Part shown: positions 5,970 through 32,895 of the stretch, piece by piece
How positions within the stretch are numbered: the first letter of the stretch is position 1
Layout of the letters: each line of letters starts with the position of its first letter
Assembly: GCA_031258305.1 (NCBI GenBank)
Contig: JAIRNA010000006.1
Span: forward strand, 1 to 33,041
Direction of reading: 5' to 3'
DNA: 33,041 bases
DNA from: Treponema sp.
GTDB taxonomy: Bacteria > Spirochaetota > Spirochaetia > Treponematales > Breznakiellaceae
The notes under the pieces: model-generated
Told to the model about the DNA's origin: nothing
The model's input: the letters and a program-made list of their open reading frames with translations, nothing else
Database searches by the model: none
Position numbers and translations under genes: made by a program

Positions 5970-6968
5970 ATGACAAGTTATAAAGAATTAGGATTGGTGA
6001 ATACGAAAGAGCTGTTTGCCAAGGCAATGAAAGGCAAATACGCAGTTCCAGCGTATAATTTCAACAATATGGAACAGTTGCAGGCTATCATCCAAGCCTG
6101 CGTGGAGACTAAATCTCCGGTCATCTTACAGGTTTCCTCTGGCGCGCGCAAATACGCAAATCAGAACCTGCTTAAGAATATGGCTAAGGGTGCAGTGGAA
6201 TACGCGCATGAACTCGGCTACGACATCCCTATCGTCCTGCACCTCGACCACGGCGACACCTTGGAACTGTGCGAGGACTGCATCGAAAGCGGCTTCTCCA
6301 GTGTGATGATTGACGGATCCAGCAAATCGGACGAAGATAACATCGAGCTTACCAAAAAGGTTGTAGAATACGCCCATTCCCGTAAAGACTACGTGACCGT
6401 CGAGGGCGAACTCGGAGTGCTCGCGGGTGTGGAAGATGATGTAGTTGCAGAACATAGCCACTACACCCGACCGGAGCAAGTGGAGAACTTCGTCAGCAAA
6501 ACCGGCGTGGATTCTCTGGCGATTTCCATCGGCACGAGCCACGGACGCGCCAAATTCAAGCCGGAGCAATGCTCCCGCACCCCGGACGGCGTTCTCATTC
6601 CGCCTCCTCTGCGTTTCGATATTCTGGAAGAAATCGAGAAAAGACTACCCGGTTTCCCCATTGTACTGCATGGTTCGTCTTCAGTTCCGATTGAATACGT
6701 CAAAATGATTGAGAAATATGGCGGCAAACTGGCGGATTCCGTGGGCATTCCCGAAGAACAGCTCCGCAAAGCCGCAAAGAGCGCGGTGTGCAAAATCAAT
6801 ATCGACAGCGACGGCCGCCTCGCGATGACCGCACTCCTCCGTAAAGTTTTTGCCGAGAAACCAGAAGAATTTGACCCCCGCAAGTACCTTGGACCCGCCC
6901 GTGATGAGTTAAAAAAGATGTACGTGCATAAGAACGTCAACGTGCTTGGTTCTGCAGGACAGGCGTAA
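5970..6968 (+). CDS. fba: Class II fructose-1,6-bisphosphate aldolase
   Basis: YAVPAYNFNNMEQLQAII, HLDHGD, EGELG, LHGSSSVP motifs; 332 aa. Confidence 0.93.
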   Translation: MTSYKELGLVNTKELFAKAMKGKYAVPAYNFNNMEQLQAIIQACVETKSPVILQVSSGARKYANQNLLKNMAKGAVEYAHELGYDIPIVLHLDHGDTLELCEDCIESGFSSVMIDGSSKSDEDNIELTKKVVEYAHSRKDYVTVEGELGVLAGVEDDVVAEHSHYTRPEQVENFVSKTGVDSLAISIGTSHGRAKFKPEQCSRTPDGVLIPPPLRFDILEEIEKRLPGFPIVLHGSSSVPIEYVKMIEKYGGKLADSVGIPEEQLRKAAKSAVCKINIDSDGRLAMTALLRKVFAEKPEEFDPRKYLGPARDELKKMYVHKNVNVLGSAGQA

Positions 6969-6989: not shown

Positions 6990-7152
6990 ATTCATCTTCC
7001 CATTGTGCAGCCATCTGGTACGCGAAGGAGTGTACTGTCCGCCGTACGCTTTTACTGAGAAACGCTATGTATAAATATTTTGTAAAAATTAAACATCACC
7101 CTATGTTGCCCTGGCGCTATTTCGACGTACGGCGGCAAAAAATTGTTCTCCG
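6990..7152 (+). repeat. Left copy of 163-bp direct repeat flanking the R-M island
   Basis: Matches 10403-10565 at constant offset 3413 with two mismatches seen (ACTGAG/ACCGAG; GTTC/GTTA). Confidence 0.95.
7067..7152 (+). pseudogene. Truncated duplicate of the GH13 gene 5' end
   Basis: ATGTATAAATATTTTGTAAAAATTAAACATCACCC... matches the start of the intact gene at 10480, then diverges after 7152. Confidence 0.9.
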
Positions 7153-7291
7153 AAACTTTTTTGCCACCCGCACAACCTTGATATAGCCGAAAGAGTAGAA
7201 GGACGCAATAGAAAACCTGAAAATTCGGCACGCCGCCATCCTTGGCGGTGCAAAAGGGAAAAACTCACTGAAAATTCATAGCCTTACCCAC

Positions 7292-7320
7292 TTGACTGGC
7301 AGGATTGTCTTTGATACAAT
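7292..7320 (+). promoter_or_regulatory. Promoter of the M-M-R operon
   Basis: TTGACT (7292-7297), 17 bp, TACAAT (7315-7320). Confidence 0.7.
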
Positions 7321-7336
7321 CATAAAAGGGTGATTT

Positions 7337-8188
7337 ATGAGCGATATGGACTATATTGACACAGTTTTTTACTCAGATTCTCGCAAAATGGAGGAACTGC
7401 CGGATAATTCCGTTCATCTCGTTGTTACAAGCCCACCGTATTTTAACATCAAAGACTACTCGCTTGACGGCTATCAGCAACAAAAAAAAGGTAAGCGAAA
7501 AAAAGAACAAATAGGAGACATCGCGGACTATGAGCAATATATCAATGAATTGCTTTTAGTCTGGAAAGAATGTGAGCGTGTCTTAAAACCCAATGGCAAA
7601 ATCGCCATAAACACTCCGCTTATGCCTATGTTAAAACGGGAAATGACAACACATTATAATAGACATATTTTTAATATCGACAGCGACATTAGACATTCGA
7701 TAGTTTATAATACTAACCTTTATTTGCTTGATGTGTATATTTGGAATCGCACTAATCCAAGTAAAAAATTGATGTTTGGAAGTTATCCATACCCAAGAAA
7801 TTTTTACGCGCAAAATACGACAGAATTTATTAGCGTGTATGTTAAGGATGGGCAACCTGAAAATAACTTGCCAGAAGACATAAAAGAAGAAAGCAAACTT
7901 ACTCAAGACGAATGGGTTAATTTCACAAAACAAATTTGGAATATCCCGATACCTGGAAAAGGCGATATAGCGTTTGGAAAACATTCGGCAATAATGCCGG
8001 AAGAAATAGTCCGCCGTTGCATCCGTTTATTTACTTTTGTTGGTGATGTTGTTCTTGACCCATTTACAGGAAGTGGTACAACATTAAAAGTCGCAAAAGA
8101 ACAGGGTAGGCACTATGTCGGTTATGAAATATCAGAAACATATAAATCTGTAATTAAAGAAAAATTAAGTCAGGGATTATTTGGATGA
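7337..8188 (+). CDS. DNA methyltransferase, beta-type N6A/N4C family (motif IV SPPY, motif I DPFTGSG)
   Basis: VVTSPPYFNIKDYS near N-terminus and VVLDPFTGSGTTLKVAKEQGRHYVGYEIS near C-terminus. Confidence 0.92.
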   Translation: MSDMDYIDTVFYSDSRKMEELPDNSVHLVVTSPPYFNIKDYSLDGYQQQKKGKRKKEQIGDIADYEQYINELLLVWKECERVLKPNGKIAINTPLMPMLKREMTTHYNRHIFNIDSDIRHSIVYNTNLYLLDVYIWNRTNPSKKLMFGSYPYPRNFYAQNTTEFISVYVKDGQPENNLPEDIKEESKLTQDEWVNFTKQIWNIPIPGKGDIAFGKHSAIMPEEIVRRCIRLFTFVGDVVLDPFTGSGTTLKVAKEQGRHYVGYEISETYKSVIKEKLSQGLFG

Positions 8189-8961
8189 TATTGAAACTTA
8201 ATAGTATTTATACTATGGATTGTATAGATTTTCTCAATAAAATTGATGACGGCTTTGCAGATTTAGCCGTTTTGGACCCTCCGTATAATATGCGAAAATC
8301 AGATTGGGACACATTCAAATCGGACAAAGATTTTTTTGATTGGACTTTTTCATGGATTGATGTTCTTTTGCCTAAATTAAAAGATACAGGCAGTTTATAC
8401 ATTTTTAATACTCCGTATAATTGCGCTTTTATTTTGCAATATCTTGTATCAAAAAAAATGAAATTTCAAAATTGGATTACATGGGATAAACGAGACGGTC
8501 TCGGAGCATCAAAACGAAAATATAGCAACGGACAAGAAGCAATTCTCTTTTTTACAAAATCTAATCGCTATACATTTAATTATGAAGAAATACGTGTTCC
8601 CTACGAATCGGTAGAACGTATGCAAGCCGCCGAGAAAACAGGTATTCTTAAAAACGGCAAAAGATGGTATCCTAATCCAAATGGGAGGTTTTGTGGTGAA
8701 GTGTGGCATTTTACCAGCGAGCGCCATAAAACAAAAGTCAATGGAAAAGTACAAAAATTAGACCATATTACGCCAAAACCGCTTGATTTAGTCGAGCGTA
8801 TTATTAAAGCAAGTTCAAACGAAAAAGATATTGTGCTAGATTGTTTTGTCGGTGGCGGAACGACCGCAGTTTCTGCAAAAAAACTTTTGCGGAATTTTAT
8901 TTGCTCTGATTCAAAGGCAGAATTTGTTGAAGCGGCAAAACGGAAGGTTAAAGCATTATGA
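8185..8961 (+). CDS. Second DNA methyltransferase (motif IV DPPY)
   Basis: LAVLDPPYNMRKSDWD and IVLDCFVGGGTTAVSAKKLLRNFICSD; ATGA overlap with the upstream gene. Confidence 0.9.
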   Translation: MILKLNSIYTMDCIDFLNKIDDGFADLAVLDPPYNMRKSDWDTFKSDKDFFDWTFSWIDVLLPKLKDTGSLYIFNTPYNCAFILQYLVSKKMKFQNWITWDKRDGLGASKRKYSNGQEAILFFTKSNRYTFNYEEIRVPYESVERMQAAEKTGILKNGKRWYPNPNGRFCGEVWHFTSERHKTKVNGKVQKLDHITPKPLDLVERIIKASSNEKDIVLDCFVGGGTTAVSAKKLLRNFICSDSKAEFVEAAKRKVKAL

Positions 8962-10193
8962 AAGAACTTTTAGCAATTTCTCCAGGAAATGTCGCGCTTG
9001 AATTCCTCGCCAAGCGTATTGCAGATGATAATTATCGCGGCGAAAAGTCATCACAACACAACCGGTATACAAAATCCGATGTAGTTACTATTTTGACTAT
9101 TTTCAACAATTACGCGCCTAATGGAAGTTTAATGAAAATTAGAACCACCGATATTTCAAAACGTCCAGCAAATAGCCCAGATGAAAAAATCTTTGCCCAA
9201 TTTTGTACAGACGTAGTGTCTAAAATTCATAAGGGGACACAAGATGCAATGCGGAAAAATTATTTTGTTGACTTTCACAGAATGGGTTTCATTGCTCGTT
9301 ATGATAAGAAAAAGAATTCTATCGTGCCTTTTGCGTCTGGTAAAATTAAGTATGTGTCTTTGACAAAACAAGGGCAAAGATTGATAAATGCAACAGATTT
9401 AGAAGAACAACATTTCGTATTTTCAAAAGGTATCGACTCAATGCTTGGTGGATATATAAACCTATTGTTGGAAATATTCCGTACCCCTGATTATGGGATT
9501 GAAACAATAACAATATACGAATATATGTTTTTTGTTTCCGCTGTACACTCTAATACTGCATTTGAAATTGATACTCAAAGATGCGTGGAATATATCAAAT
9601 TGTATAGAACGCTATCAAGAGGGCAAAGAGAGGCCGTTGTAAATATACTCAAAGAAAAAATGCAGCCTAAAAATTATTTGGGTAACAAAATAGAAAAACG
9701 CGATTTTTATAATTGGTGGAATAAGGCGGAACAATTATTTTCTGTCATTACACAAACAGTATATTTTGAGGAACGTGAGAATAAATTAATTCCAAGAGAA
9801 TTACGAAATGCCAAAGGTGAAAGAACAACATTAGTAAAATTATCGCGTTCAATTAGCGAAAAATTTGAATACTTTACTAACCATAAGGTCAGTAAATTCA
9901 TAGGATTTGAATTGCATCATGTCGTACCATTATCATGGGCAGAGAGCCGCGAACAATTTATTCTATTAGATGTTTGGATAAACATGGTATATATTGACGC
10001 TTTTAGCCATGCAAAAATTACTCAAAATAACAATAATAATGTGCAAATGGAACATGAAGGCACTACAGTTATTTTAAATGATTTGATAGGCAATAATGTT
10101 GAATTGGTATTGAATAACAATATCATGTATTCTCCAGATAAATTAAATGACATGCTCGATTACAATACAAAGTTACTACATAAATATCTGTAA
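8958..10193 (+). CDS. Probable HNH-type restriction endonuclease of the M-M-R operon
   Basis: ATGA overlap with the second methyltransferase; C-terminal FELHHVVPLSWA...INMVYIDAFSHAKITQ fits an HNH (beta-beta-alpha-metal) pattern. Confidence 0.65.
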   Translation: MKELLAISPGNVALEFLAKRIADDNYRGEKSSQHNRYTKSDVVTILTIFNNYAPNGSLMKIRTTDISKRPANSPDEKIFAQFCTDVVSKIHKGTQDAMRKNYFVDFHRMGFIARYDKKKNSIVPFASGKIKYVSLTKQGQRLINATDLEEQHFVFSKGIDSMLGGYINLLLEIFRTPDYGIETITIYEYMFFVSAVHSNTAFEIDTQRCVEYIKLYRTLSRGQREAVVNILKEKMQPKNYLGNKIEKRDFYNWWNKAEQLFSVITQTVYFEERENKLIPRELRNAKGERTTLVKLSRSISEKFEYFTNHKVSKFIGFELHHVVPLSWAESREQFILLDVWINMVYIDAFSHAKITQNNNNNVQMEHEGTTVILNDLIGNNVELVLNNNIMYSPDKLNDMLDYNTKLLHKYL

Positions 10194-10211
10194 CTATTGT
10201 TTTACTCCTTT

Positions 10212-10338
10212 CTGGTAAACCTTTCCGCCACTCCTGGAAACTTTACTGCCGTTCCAGTAAGACTTGCCGCCATTCTTGCAAAGTCTAAAGTCATTACTGG
10301 AAGCTTTACAGCCGTGGCTGTAAGGTCTTGTAGAATAT
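10212..10338 (+). repeat. Degenerate tandem array, ~6 units of 21-22 bp (consensus ~CTGGAAACTTTACTGCCGTTC)
   Basis: Units at 10212, 10234, 10255, 10276, 10297, 10318; begins 18 bp after the endonuclease stop. Confidence 0.7.
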
Positions 10339-10387
10339 CCGCAACTATGGTAGGCTATTCTAAACTTATTGAAATGGAGTGAGAACT

Positions 10388-10498
10388 ATGGCAAATGACT
10401 ACATTCATCTTCCCATTGTGCAGCCATCTGGTACGCGAAGGAGTGTACTGTCCGCCGTACGCTTTTACCGAGAAACGCTATGTATAAATATTTTGTAA
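10388..10498 (+). pseudogene. Chimeric 36-codon ORF: MANDYI start fused to GH13 upstream sequence; probable remnant of the small array-associated family
   Basis: ATGGCAAATGACTACATT after GGAGTGAG RBS; the 163-bp duplicated segment begins at 10403, in codon 6. The MANDYI start resembling family N-termini is from memory. Confidence 0.45.
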
Positions 10499-10565
10499 AA
10501 ATTAAACATCACCCTATGTTGCCCTGGCGCTATTTCGACGTACGGCGGCAAAAAATTGTTATCCG
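10403..10565 (+). repeat. Right copy of 163-bp direct repeat flanking the R-M island
   Basis: See 6990-7152. Confidence 0.95.
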
Positions 10566-12315
10566 CCTTATTTCCACGCCGGACATCAGAAACATAGAAC
10601 TGCTTTACAACGACCCTTTTGATTATGTGCAAAGAGGCGCTGAATGGATCTGGCGTTACGAAACCACGTCGCTCTCCAGACAGTTTTCGGGCGGTTCTGC
10701 GCTGATGTGGCGGGTGGAAATTGACATTCCGCCGCGGCGGCGCTTGAAATACGGGTTTCGTGTCTTCTTTGACAACGGCGAAACAGGCTGGTTTTCGGAA
10801 TGGGGGCTTGAGCCGTTTTCAGACGCCGCGGTGAATATGCCGCATAACCACTTCTTCTACCCGTTTATCCACGATGTGGATGCGCCGAAACCGCCCGTAT
10901 GGGTAGAAGAAACGGTGTGGTACCAAATTTTTCCAGATAGATTTTATCGGAGCGGCGGAGGCGTTCCACAGAATATTCCGACTGAGAATCTTGGGGATTG
11001 GGAAAAAGACGAGCCGACCCGGCATAACTTCTTCGGTGGAGATCTTGAGGGAATTCGGCGGCGGCTTGCCTATTTAAAAAACGTGGGGGTAAACGGCATA
11101 TACCTCACTCCTATCTTTAAATCCCCATCGAGTCATAAATACGATACCGAAGACTATTTTAGCATTGACGAACGTTTTGGTGGGACGGAAACCTTGAAGG
11201 CGCTGACTGCATCTGCCCACGAGTTAGGTATCCGCGTAATGCTTGATGCGGTATTCAACCACATTGGGAATACACACCCATTCTGGCAGGATGTGCTTGA
11301 GAAACAGGAAAAATCCCCGTACAAAGATTTTTTCCATATACATAGTTTCCCGGTAAAAGAGCAATATGAGGAACCGCGGAGCAGTAACTATGATTGTTTT
11401 GCCTTTGTTCCCTCTATGCCGAAATGGAATACCGAAAATCCGCAAGCGCGCAAATACCTGCTCGACGCGGCGCTCTACTGGATAAAAGAGTGCGACATTG
11501 ACGCTTGGCGCTTAGACGTGGCAAATGAAGTTTCCTTTGACTTCTGGCGGGAATTTTCCGCACTCACACACGGAGCAAAACCTGATTTTTATGTGGTTGG
11601 AGAAATCTGGGACGATGCATCTGCGTGGGTCAACGGCGGCTTCTTTGACGCGGTGATGAACTATCCGCTTGGCAGCGCTGTTTCGGGGTTCTTCCTGCAA
11701 AAGAAGACAGACGCGCAAGCGGCGCTTGCGTTTACCGACAGGCTTTTTCTTGCCTTATCCCGTTATGATGACAGCCGCAATAGTATTGCTTTCAACCTCC
11801 TGGATTCCCATGACACAGAGCGGGCTTTGACCGTTGCCGGTGGAGACAAGCAAGCTTTGCGGAACGCGTTCACCGTACTGTTCTTATTACCAGGTTCCCC
11901 GTGCATCTACTATGGTACCGAGGTTGGCATGAGCGGCGGCGGTGACCCCCAATGCCGCGCTCCTATGGTCTGGGACGAGGCGCGGCAGGATAAAAGCCTG
12001 CTTGCGTTTTTTCAGCGTCTCATCAGATTTCGGCTTGCCAACATCGGTCTCATCAAGAATTGTGCGTTGAGTTTCATAGAAGAGGACGGGATCTCTTATT
12101 GGCAACTGATACGGCAGGTACCGTGTCAACTGCCGCCGTTTTCTCCGTCGGAGAAGGGCTTGACCGTGGTCTATACTAACGGAGAAGCGGCGTTCCTTGC
12201 GGATTTGGAGCGGCGTTTCGGACGGCTCGCCTTTAGTGCGCTTGAAGATGAACGTGAAGAATTGCGGCAACCGCTGCGGTGGTTGCCGCCGTATTCGATC
12301 GCGGTATTCGGATGA
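10480..12315 (+). CDS. GH13 alpha-glycosidase (neopullulanase/cyclomaltodextrinase-like)
   Basis: N-terminal beta domain; WYQIFPDRF, GVNGIYLTPIF, DAVFNHIG, DAWRLDVANE, VGEIWDD, LLDSHDTER motifs. Confidence 0.93.
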   Translation: MYKYFVKIKHHPMLPWRYFDVRRQKIVIRLISTPDIRNIELLYNDPFDYVQRGAEWIWRYETTSLSRQFSGGSALMWRVEIDIPPRRRLKYGFRVFFDNGETGWFSEWGLEPFSDAAVNMPHNHFFYPFIHDVDAPKPPVWVEETVWYQIFPDRFYRSGGGVPQNIPTENLGDWEKDEPTRHNFFGGDLEGIRRRLAYLKNVGVNGIYLTPIFKSPSSHKYDTEDYFSIDERFGGTETLKALTASAHELGIRVMLDAVFNHIGNTHPFWQDVLEKQEKSPYKDFFHIHSFPVKEQYEEPRSSNYDCFAFVPSMPKWNTENPQARKYLLDAALYWIKECDIDAWRLDVANEVSFDFWREFSALTHGAKPDFYVVGEIWDDASAWVNGGFFDAVMNYPLGSAVSGFFLQKKTDAQAALAFTDRLFLALSRYDDSRNSIAFNLLDSHDTERALTVAGGDKQALRNAFTVLFLLPGSPCIYYGTEVGMSGGGDPQCRAPMVWDEARQDKSLLAFFQRLIRFRLANIGLIKNCALSFIEEDGISYWQLIRQVPCQLPPFSPSEKGLTVVYTNGEAAFLADLERRFGRLAFSALEDEREELRQPLRWLPPYSIAVFG

Positions 12316-13158: not shown

Positions 13159-13169
13159 CTGTAGCGTTG

Positions 13170-13295
13170 CATAGTTTGAACTTTGCGTTTCATAGTTTGA
13201 ACTTTGCGCTTCATAGTTTGAACTTTGCGCTTCATAGTTTGAACTTTGCGTTTCATAGTTTGAACTTTGCATTTCATAGTTTGAACTTTGCGTTT
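13170..13295. repeat. Tandem array, 6 x 21 bp (CATAGTTTGAACTTTGCGTTT)
   Basis: Units at 13170, 13191, 13212, 13233, 13254, 13275; variants differ only by GCGTTT/GCGCTT/GCATTT. Confidence 0.97.
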
Positions 13296-13311
13296 ACAAA
13301 GTATACTGTAG

Positions 13312-13560
13312 TGTCAGACATCGTTAGTGTCAGACACCGTTAGTGTCAGACACCGTTAGCGTCAGACATCGTTAGTGTCAGACACCGTTAGCGTCAGACA
13401 TCGTTAGCGTCAGACACCGTTAGCGTCAGACATCGTTAGTGTCAGACATCGTTAGCGTCAGACATCGTTAGTGTCAGACACCGTTAGTGTCAGACATCGT
13501 TAGTGTCAGACACCGTTAGTGTCAGACACCGTTAGTGTCAGACATCGTTAGTGTCAGACA
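13312..13560. repeat. Tandem array, 15 full + 1 partial x 16 bp (YGTCAGACAYCGTTAG)
   Basis: Exact 16-bp period; only two positions vary, both C/T. Confidence 0.97.
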
Positions 13561-30049: not shown

Positions 30050-30080
30050 AAAATCCTCCTTATAAAAGTCGATGTATAAG

Positions 30081-30109
30081 AGTATGCTCTATACGTCTAA
30101 AATTGTCAA
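30081..30109 (-). promoter_or_regulatory. Promoter of family gene B
   Basis: Minus strand TTGACA (30109-30104), 17 bp (ATTTTAGACGTATAGAG), CATACT (30086-30081). Confidence 0.72.
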
Positions 30110-30157
30110 GAATGTTTTTTAAAAAACCGCCTGTTTTTTTAGATTCTTTTATAAAAT

Positions 30158-30577
30158 CTTAAGACACAGGGTCGTTGTCTTAAGACACGGGAGTAAAATC
30201 TTAAGACACAGGGTCATTGTCTTAAGACACGGGAGTAAAATCTTAAGACACAGGGTCATTGTCTTAAGACACGGGAGTAAAATCTTAAGACACAGGGGCG
30301 TTGTCTTAAGACACAGGAGTAAAATCTTAAGACACAGGGGCGTTGTCTTAAGACACAGGAGTAAAATCTTAAGACACAGGGGCGTTGTCTTAAGACACAG
30401 GAGTAAAATCTTAAGACACAGGGTCATTGTCTTAAGACACAGGGTCATTGTCTTAAGACACAGGGTCATTGTCTTAAGACACAGGAGTAAAATCTTAAGA
30501 CACAGGGGCGTTGTCTTAAGACACAGGAGTAAAATCTTAAGACACAGGGGCGTTGTCTTAAGACACAGGGTCGAGCG
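30158..30577. repeat. Tandem array, 20 x 21 bp, two alternating unit types
   Basis: CTTAAGACAC every 21 bp from 30158 to 30557; unit type A ends in ..TTGT, type B in ..GAGTAAAAT. Confidence 0.98.
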
Positions 30578-30641
30578 GGCGTATTGCCGCCGCTTTAGGG
30601 ATGGGGATTGGTTTGCGGGGGAAACCGCATTGTGGGAAAGG

Positions 30642-32330
30642 CTAAAATGCAAGTGTTCTTTGGCTGCCGGCCTTGCGGTTTAACCGCCAGCCGTTTTCCG
30701 TCTGCTCTCCTATGTCTTTCAACACGCTTTCTATCGTCTGGTTTTTGGGTTCGCGCCCGTTTCTTAAAAGCGGCATAATCTCATATATGATTTTATCGAA
30801 GTCCGTCGTCCCGTTTGTTAGTAAAAAACTCGTTAAGAAGTATTTAATACGCAGTTTTTCGTCTACATGCGTCTTGAACGGCTTGTTTTTTTTTATGTTA
30901 AACTTTTCCGCGTCCGGGTCGTAATCAAACCTGTCAAGCAGCAACGGCGTCAAATCAGTATACTGTTTCTGCAATAAATGCAGAAACCCCCGCTCCAGCC
31001 CTTTGATGATGAGTTCGTCGTTTATTTCTTCAAGCGTCGCGCCGTGGTTCTTTGCGATAACCCCTTCGATGGTCTGCATCACGATTTCGTCTATATCTTC
31101 TCCGAAAACGCCTCTTAACAGGGTCTTTGGATTCTTTGTCTTGCGAAAGTTGAGAATAAGCTCGCCCGACAACACGGTAAAAGGATGCTGGCGCTTCTTG
31201 AAAGAAGTTTGCCCGTTCTTCTGCGGAACCGCGCCCGCATATTCGAAGCCGCAGTGTTCGGCGGTATCAATAATCAAATGCCAAAACTCCGGGTCCTTGT
31301 GCGCGTATACAAAGGAAAGCCAGCGGTCGAATTTCAGCACGCGGTACATTTCTCGTATGCTTTGCGCTATCAGGCTGTTGTACTCGTCTTTTGTTTTGCG
31401 GCGTTCGCCGCCTTCGATGGCTTCCTGCGCGTAGTCTTGCTCCGTAACGTCCAAATCAAGCCACGCGTTCCACATCACCGACAAATCCAAGTACGGTATT
31501 TTCTTGCCGTAGGGCGGGTCCGTGTAAATGTAATCAACGCTCTCGTTTGCCAAAAAGGATAAATCCGCCGCGCTTCCTTTTCTGACGTCTAAATGAGAAA
31601 TGGTTTTATCGTTAATAAAGTATTCCATTTCTTTTTTTGCAGCTTTTACAGCGTTATATCGTAATTCAAAATATTTCATTAAATCTATTTCTTTAGGGCG
31701 TGGAGCTATTCTATAACGATAATATTGAAATGCAGAAGCATTTCCGCCGCTTATACTGTCTTCTGTAGCTGTGCTGTTAGTATGGAATGTTAAATTAAAT
31801 TTTGTAACCATTCCCGAAAACATAAGCAATAAAGTATTTTTTATATTTTCATTTTTCTGTTTTAGAATTATTGATTTAAGCAATGCGAGCTTTGCGGTTT
31901 GCGTGTCGCTAAATAGTTTATCTACGGTATCAACATCGGAACCTTTTGGAAGAGCAAGTTTTTTAGGCGGCGGATATTTTTTTAACGTTTTTTGTATTTC
32001 TTCTTTGGTTTTTGGTTCTTTCTTTAAATATTCTTGCTTTACTTCTTCAAAGGCTTTTGAAAGTTCAGGCAGTTTTACGGGCGCTGTTAAAGAATTTACC
32101 AAAAAAACCGCCATCGGATTAAGGTCCATATTGATTCCTTTTCGACCGTTCATCAGCGCCTCAATTGCCGTAACGCCGCTCCCGCCGAACGGGTCGAGCA
32201 CCACGTCGCCCTTTTGCGAGAAGTTTTTTATGTATTCGGCTACCACATTCCATGCCTGCCGCGTAAAGTAGCCGTGAACGCCGAAATGCCGTTTGGCCGC
32301 CCGCTTCCGCACCGCAATTTCTTCAAGCAA
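30642..32330 (-). CDS. DNA methyltransferase (motif I DPFGGSG, motif IV TDPPYG)
   Basis: GDVVLDPFGGSGVTAIEALMNGRKGINMDLNP, YIYTDPPYGKKIPYLDLS; called start is TTG; the frame stays open upstream into the G14 tract. Confidence 0.88.
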   Translation of the reverse strand: MLEEIAVRKRAAKRHFGVHGYFTRQAWNVVAEYIKNFSQKGDVVLDPFGGSGVTAIEALMNGRKGINMDLNPMAVFLVNSLTAPVKLPELSKAFEEVKQEYLKKEPKTKEEIQKTLKKYPPPKKLALPKGSDVDTVDKLFSDTQTAKLALLKSIILKQKNENIKNTLLLMFSGMVTKFNLTFHTNSTATEDSISGGNASAFQYYRYRIAPRPKEIDLMKYFELRYNAVKAAKKEMEYFINDKTISHLDVRKGSAADLSFLANESVDYIYTDPPYGKKIPYLDLSVMWNAWLDLDVTEQDYAQEAIEGGERRKTKDEYNSLIAQSIREMYRVLKFDRWLSFVYAHKDPEFWHLIIDTAEHCGFEYAGAVPQKNGQTSFKKRQHPFTVLSGELILNFRKTKNPKTLLRGVFGEDIDEIVMQTIEGVIAKNHGATLEEINDELIIKGLERGFLHLLQKQYTDLTPLLLDRFDYDPDAEKFNIKKNKPFKTHVDEKLRIKYFLTSFLLTNGTTDFDKIIYEIMPLLRNGREPKNQTIESVLKDIGEQTENGWRLNRKAGSQRTLAF

Positions 32331-32346
32331 AGGTCTGTTTTTATAA

Positions 32347-32895
32347 TCAATTCTTTCGCACGGCCCCCCCCCCCCCCGCCGTCACTCTTGTTTCATAGGC
32401 GAAAGTTTTTCCCGCCTGAAAACTGTTTATTGAAAGAATGGTTCGTAGTTCATTCCAGTGTTTATCAAGCTCGCTCATCTTGAAATAAAGTTTCGGCGTA
32501 TTTGTTTCCGTGGTTCTATAACAAACAAATTCAAGACCGTTACATAGCGTGAAATAATTACTTTGTACGTCTATGTGCGCGGCGTAAGAGTAGGCTTGTT
32601 CAATATTATTCTTTTCTAATATATTTTGATTCGGCGATTTTGTCTCCAGCGTCCACGCATACGCATTTCCAACTTTCATAAGATAATCCGGTCTCATAGT
32701 ATGCAGTTTGCGCCCCGCGCGTAGTTTTAAGGTTTTGTTGCGCTCTATGTTTTCATAGGAAAAGCCCAGATTTTTTAGAAGAGGTTCAACAATCACCGCC
32801 GCTACATCAGCTTCGGTAAAATCTTTCCGTGAAACCAGCGAGTGTATATCGCCGCCGCCGAAAATTTTTTTGCTTATTGCATTTTCTTGTTCCAT
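32347..32895 (-). CDS. HSDR_N-like (type I restriction R-subunit N-terminal-like) protein
   Basis: DFTEADVAAVIVEPLLKNLGFSYEN...RPDYLMKVGNAYAWTLETKSPN: PD...ExK-type nuclease core; ends in ..TAGGGGAVRKN at the G14 tract. Confidence 0.7.
   Translation of the reverse strand: MEQENAISKKIFGGGDIHSLVSRKDFTEADVAAVIVEPLLKNLGFSYENIERNKTLKLRAGRKLHTMRPDYLMKVGNAYAWTLETKSPNQNILEKNNIEQAYSYAAHIDVQSNYFTLCNGLEFVCYRTTETNTPKLYFKMSELDKHWNELRTILSINSFQAGKTFAYETRVTAGGGGAVRKN
32364..32377 (-). repeat. Homopolymeric tract, 14 G on the minus strand
   Basis: CGG-C14-GCC on the plus strand, at the junction of two R-M ORFs. Confidence 0.95.

Follow-up and report, generated by a model that had tools for sequence, protein, structure and literature searches.

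A restriction-modification island between two copies of a host gene start in a termite-gut Treponema begins with a dispersed cassette-start element

In the 33,041-nt stretch of DNA analysed here (the window; positions 1 to 33,041 of contig JAIRNA010000006.1, assembly GCA_031258305.1, Treponema sp., family Breznakiellaceae), a restriction-modification (R-M) system lies between a gene for a class II fructose-bisphosphate aldolase and one for a GH13 enzyme of the alpha-amylase/maltodextrin glucosidase-like kind (Table 1). The system consists of two amino-methyltransferase genes, M1 and M2, and a gene for an HNH restriction endonuclease, R; it is preceded by a structured element of about 120 nt, which we call E, and the whole island is enclosed by two copies of the start of the GH13 gene.

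Table 1. Features of the island at the aldolase-GH13 junction and of the genes on either side (positions in the window)
Feature	Position	Strand	Evidence and remarks
Class II fructose-bisphosphate aldolase, left flank	5970..6968	+	PF01116 E=2.3e-93; NF005481 over cut-off
Left repeat copy	6990..7152	+	77 bp upstream of GH13 and 86 bp of its 5' coding sequence; G7145 is the last base of the duplication proper
Element E, cassette-start/leader-like	7145..7262	+	begins at GTT; conserved hairpins; covariance model R1, 108.5 bits, E=3.9e-24 (this sequence is among the model's seeds); covariation; BLAST homologs
Putative sigma-70-like promoter before M1	7292..7320	+	TTGACT-17-TACAAT, read from sequence
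M1, N6/N4 amino-methyltransferase	7337..8188	+	PF01555 E=3e-47; PDLC03353 E=1.5e-87
M2, N6/N4 amino-methyltransferase	8185..8961	+	PF01555 E=1.6e-56; 4-base overlap with M1
R, type II restriction endonuclease, HNH, HpyAII-like	8958..10193	+	PDLC03506 REase_II E=1.9e-118; H320 H321 N342 H351 invariant
Right interior flank	10194..10402	+	decayed tandem array of about 21 bp, then GGAGTGAGAACTATGGCAAATGACTAC directly before right repeat
Right repeat copy	10403..10565	+	continuous with intact GH13; target G|TT core 10558-10560 (codon 27 GTT)
GH13 alpha-amylase/maltodextrin glucosidase-like gene, intact	10480..12315	+	611 aa; PF00128 E=8e-74

The two copies of the GH13 start, recovered by a repeat search of the window, form a 163-nt direct repeat of 99% identity at an offset of 3413, with two mismatches (T at 7056 for C at 10469, and C at 7148 for A at 10561) that divide it into identical blocks of 66, 91 and 4 nt. 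An assembly artefact is unlikely, because these blocks are shorter than the assembly k of 119 (a value taken from the names of related contigs) and the copies should therefore resolve. The genome has just two copies of the sequence. In a 1.06-Mb sample of the genome, with matches of 99-119 nt involving contig ends set aside, this was the sole direct repeat of at least 100 bp and more than 95% identity with copies 0.3-20 kb apart. Since the E family begins at the GTT at 7145, we take the duplicated stretch proper to be 6990-7145 (156 bp, one mismatch); the last matching bases of the left repeat (TCCG) need not derive from the target. The left copy encodes a GH13 fragment of only 39 aa, while the right copy runs into the intact gene. 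G+C content is 0.33-0.36 across M1, M2 and R, versus 0.51 in the aldolase and GH13 genes. Open reading frame (ORF) and domain searches of the island found M1, M2 and R as its sole sense ORFs, and no transposase or integrase gene. Of these features, the first-pass annotation had described the near-identical duplication, its dead left and live right copies, the AT-richer M-M-HNH interior and the lack of a mobility gene, and these were borne out.

R matched no Pfam family, but its four invariant residues (Table 1), constant across four R homologs, have the spacing HH-21-N-9-H that is also that of HpyAII (HpyII) of Helicobacter pylori. HpyAII is accompanied by two exocyclic methyltransferases and is a type IIS HNH enzyme with catalytic residues H328, H329, N350 and H359, cutting near GAAGA (PMC7494987). 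From gene content and spacing, the window system and HpyAII thus appear to belong to the same R-M family, and the system at this locus, whose genes are all intact, may be active and may recognise GAAGA. Homologs of R, the closest sequenced relatives that we found, occur on Helicobacter suis plasmids (35% identity, adjoining two methyltransferase genes) and in two Spirochaetota genomes (loci L088 and L089; R 39-44%, M1 68-75%, M2 54-68%), with none in 395 other genomes of the order. We found no R homolog in phages or viral contigs, and so reject carriage by phage. HpyAII is also bounded by direct repeats and, according to PMC7494987 (which cites Aras et al. 2001), can reportedly be deleted and regained through recombination between them, so that an R-M system with flanking repeats has a direct precedent and the architecture seen here is of a known kind; the repeats are of 80 bp in H. 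pylori, versus 156-163 bp of a host gene start here. Such repeats are not a general trait of the family, as L088 and L089 have no long repeat around their R-M genes. Unlike HpyAII, the window system has an E leader and treponemal flanks, and its host belongs to a different phylum.

The closest relatives of the GH13 gene are in Treponema metagenome-assembled genomes (MAGs), and the aldolase-GH13 junction could be inspected in two genomes of the same genus, both of which have an empty site with neither island nor duplication. In locus L023 (genome G011) an aldolase gene of 96% identity is followed, after 88 bp, by a GH13 gene of 76% identity; in L024 (G010) the values are 94%, 443 bp and 71%; neither holds R-M genes. 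The coding half of the repeat aligns to single copies in both, whereas the 77 bp upstream of the GH13 start are not conserved there, and the 163-bp repeat DNA matched nothing in any of the genus's 11 other genomes. In-silico joining of the two flanks across the repeat leaves a 98-bp intergenic region and the intact 611-aa GH13 gene. Both relatives have a hairpin (AACTAGGAAAC...GTTTCCTAGTT) downstream of the aldolase gene (L023:6373-6434; L024:7570-7627), probably a terminator, which the window does not have. The first-pass annotation had proposed that recombination between the repeats could restore the locus, as the in-silico joining does, and had named as a check a single-copy empty site in relatives, which the two genomes have; the outcomes that it named as refuting, an island without the duplication or the duplication without an island, were seen at neither junction. 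An excised form was not observed, reads being unavailable. Its interpretation holds in part: the empty sites support the insertion of an R-M system with long duplication of the target, and capture by tandem duplication may still apply, but it missed that the left end of the island is not anonymous DNA.

That left end is a family-wide dispersed element that normally starts integron-type cassettes at a G|TT core. BLAST searches with the DNA immediately interior to the left repeat (7153-7340) gave matches at scattered sites in genomes of the same genus, and the aligned homologs start at GTTATGYG, which is the R' box of attC-like sites. With a covariance model, 15 good copies of E were recovered in the genus, including four in the window's own genome (contigs C22, C125, C116 and C80), and a refined model found E in 40 of the 151 genomes and 21 of the 59 genera of the family. 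Its hairpins carry compensatory changes, with a covariation score above all shuffles and well above slid controls, although some inflation is to be expected from an alignment that was fitted to the hairpin structure. No Rfam family matched E, and the reading of E as a known RNA was rejected.

What E precedes (its cargo, taken as the downstream genes that share its strand or its small locus) is often related to R-M. Within the genus, in addition to M1-M2-R of the window, this cargo comprises a C5 methyltransferase with a PDLC03508 endonuclease (G005), decayed or partial C5 methyltransferases (G000:C116, G011:C86), BglI-type endonucleases (G002, G005) and PF01555 methyltransferases (G004, G002:C156, G001). 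A C5 methyltransferase (L204) and BglI-type genes (L213, L216) follow E in other genera, and genes at L207, L210, L212 and L219 were labelled EcoRI-type methyltransferase-like from reading of the sequence. In all, E heads R-M genes of unrelated families in about 9 of the 15 copies in the genus and about 16 of the 39 examined overall, against a background of about 10-12 methyltransferase matches per genome; some of these R-M genes are related to one another, so that the counts are not independent. E is not specific to R-M, because it also precedes genes for MATE transporters, a SAM domain protein and hypothetical proteins.

E is the start of a mobile cassette with a sharp edge at G|TT. Starting at the G|TT core, four cassettes of E and a MATE-type transporter show 95-100% identity, and upstream of it the similarity between their three contexts falls to shuffle level; BglI-type and other E groups have the same contrast, less sharply. 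A scan for R'', L'', L' and R' boxes found attC sites with the R' box exactly on the start of E in L155, L227 and L244 and none in shuffles, and an attC site also directly precedes E in L191, making four such loci. One of them, L227 (G186:C151), is an integron-type cassette array with repeated attC sites of about 170 bp, one directly before E. These sites resemble those of Treponema chromosomal integrons (PMC3607928) and promoter-bearing cassettes (PMC6557892) in their R and L boxes and long attC, as do the recombinases in size, the IntI of T. brennaborense being of about 398 aa (1342819-1344015; PMC3607928). The 2013 survey found no integrons in the termite-gut species T. azotonutricium and T. 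primitia (PMC3607928), unlike the attC sites and the array now seen in MAGs of termite-associated Treponema and their family.

Further attC sites were seen in the window's own genome at L069 (C2:290-468 and 1162-1332) and L121 (C53:7043-7226), and, among termite-associated Treponema and the family, at L162 and L179. At L179:5020-8936 (G003:C112) a gene for a 396-aa integrase adjoins genes for Vsr, an NgoFVII-type endonuclease and a C5 methyltransferase, with attC sites about 4 kb on. The window's own genome encodes a 397-aa tyrosine recombinase (G000:C85), whose best PDB match is the integron integrase IntI4 (2a3v, E=4.5e-42).

Our finding that the left end of the island is a dispersed cassette-start element therefore allows a mechanism of mobility to be proposed. 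The start of E coincides with the end of the left repeat, where the target itself reads GTT (codon 27 of GH13), and the locus has the layout target piece, G|TT, E, M1, M2, R, flank, target piece, G|TT, rest of GH13. Our best reading, to which we attach an even chance, is the off-target insertion of an integron-type R-M cassette in which 156 bp of target sequence stand in for attC. An HpyAII-like type IIS operon M1-M2-R, headed by E, would have entered the aldolase-GH13 junction of a termite-gut Treponema; the left end of the cassette would have been linked to GH13 at codon 27, whose G|TT is the core that an integron integrase uses at secondary (attG) sites; and the right end would repeat the 156 bp of target that lie before this G|TT, which leaves an intact GH13 gene next to it. 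The duplication could have arisen by aberrant (one-ended, staggered) insertion, or the incoming circle could already have carried a GH13 segment, and RecA-type excision and re-entry between the repeats may follow. We favour off-target cassette insertion because the layout matches the form of delta-attI cassettes, in which each end carries part of attI as far as the crossover (PMC12901181), and because integron integrases act on secondary GTT/GNT sites (PMC10127599). With delta-attI cassettes the analogy is one of form: unlike them, the target here is a chromosomal gene start and not attI, the site is outside an array and has no attC, and the candidate integrase falls below the family cut-off.

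Because the right flank holds a decayed 21-bp array like others in the genome, the R-M core of the inserted unit, which alone looks foreign, was probably framed on either side by treponemal DNA. In this flank, autocorrelation peaks at lags 21 and 42 to a strength reached by none of 2000 shuffles, and 21 bp is the commonest period of tandem arrays in this genome; the flank has no significant match elsewhere in it.

Several observations weigh against action of an integron integrase at the GH13 gene. The R/L-box scan found no attC site in the window, and none is recognisable at the right end of the island; the core in the window is GTTCTCC, where GTTATGY or GTTAGGC is usual; and a GTT at the junction is expected by chance once in 64. 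For the C85 recombinase the integron-integrase model gives 214 bits, short of the cut-off of 265, and the match to this model breaks at the expected integron-specific insert. No comparable repeat ending at E was seen at the other E loci examined, many with short flanks, except for the attC repeats of the L227 array, and target duplication is thus not a rule for E cassettes. The GH13 repeat does contain a perfect 10-bp inverted repeat (CCGCCGTACG; 10452-10461 and 10539-10548) that ends nine bases before the GTT core, a length reached by 23 of 2000 shuffles; as it has no proper R box partner, we do not call the repeat an attC site.

The repeats, the foreign composition, the empty sites and the island without a transposase would also suit a classical R-M insertion with long target duplication, a class described for R-M systems (PMC3031569; Nobusato et al. 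2000, as cited there and in PMC7494987). In this Nobusato/Kobayashi type of event, broken or circular R-M DNA would be joined at staggered breaks 156-163 bp apart and the gaps filled, with E as a passenger and no integrase involved. The island shares with this class an R-M block, a long direct target repeat, an empty site in relatives and the lack of a transposase. However, its left end is where E naturally begins, which at many other loci is a cassette boundary, and coincides in addition with a GTT in the target; unlike the rest of the class, it ends on a recurrent cassette-start element at G|TT, which suggests a specific enzyme. We therefore consider classical insertion unlikely, though far from negligible.

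That excision in silico restores the locus, that both interior flanks look treponemal, and that HpyAII is reported to be deleted and restored at its 80-bp flanking repeats (PMC7494987) also bring to mind a Campbell-type integration. A circle carrying E-M1-M2-R and a GH13 5' segment, from the chromosome of another strain, would have recombined homologously within the 156-bp segment, and the repeats would then permit repeated loss and regain. This leaves the first joining of E to GH13 at G|TT unexplained, and we found no donor locus; we think it quite improbable as the origin of the island.

Capture by duplication, in which the right flank would be the old GH13 upstream region and a GH13 5' piece with E and the R-M genes, from a disrupted GH13 allele, would have been joined in front of it, accords with the 21-bp array directly upstream of GH13 in L024 and the 21-bp periodicity at 10194-10402, but the array units are dissimilar, such arrays are common in this genome and L023 has none at this place, which makes it very unlikely. 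A composite transposon or insertion sequence (IS)-borne island was rejected: the island has no transposase and no IS copies at its ends, and the repeat is a host gene start with just two copies in this genome.

Elsewhere in the window, a gene for a 561-aa PF01555 methyltransferase (30642-32330, minus strand) and an HSDR_N-type ORF (32347-32895, minus strand) lie beside a 42-bp tandem array (30152-30569), and the region 30068-32895 may be a further R-M locus of a variable kind. At 13164-13560 two tandem arrays, of periods 21 and 16, adjoin each other. In the same genome, contigs C21 (L090) and C35 (L103) have identical 119-nt ends and probably represent small circles of about 4.8 and 12.2 kb.

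R-M systems move often, their insertion with long target duplication has been on record since 2000, and an R-M system with flanking repeats is itself already known; what is new here is the link to E at the left junction. With the repeats, the empty site and, at one junction, a recognisable cassette start brought together in this locus, the integrase model becomes testable. Our studies also show that termite-gut treponemes and their family contain attC sites and a cassette array, although the earlier survey, of two species, had detected none, and they reveal a structured leader common to R-M genes of unrelated families. We tentatively suggest, as a wider reading that we hold to be possible yet somewhat doubtful, that E may be a family-wide promoter/leader module marking integron-type cassettes that are often loaded with R-M genes in termite-gut treponemes, and that such cassettes, when an integrase inserts them off-target with target sequence in place of attC, may provide one route to the long target duplications of R-M systems.

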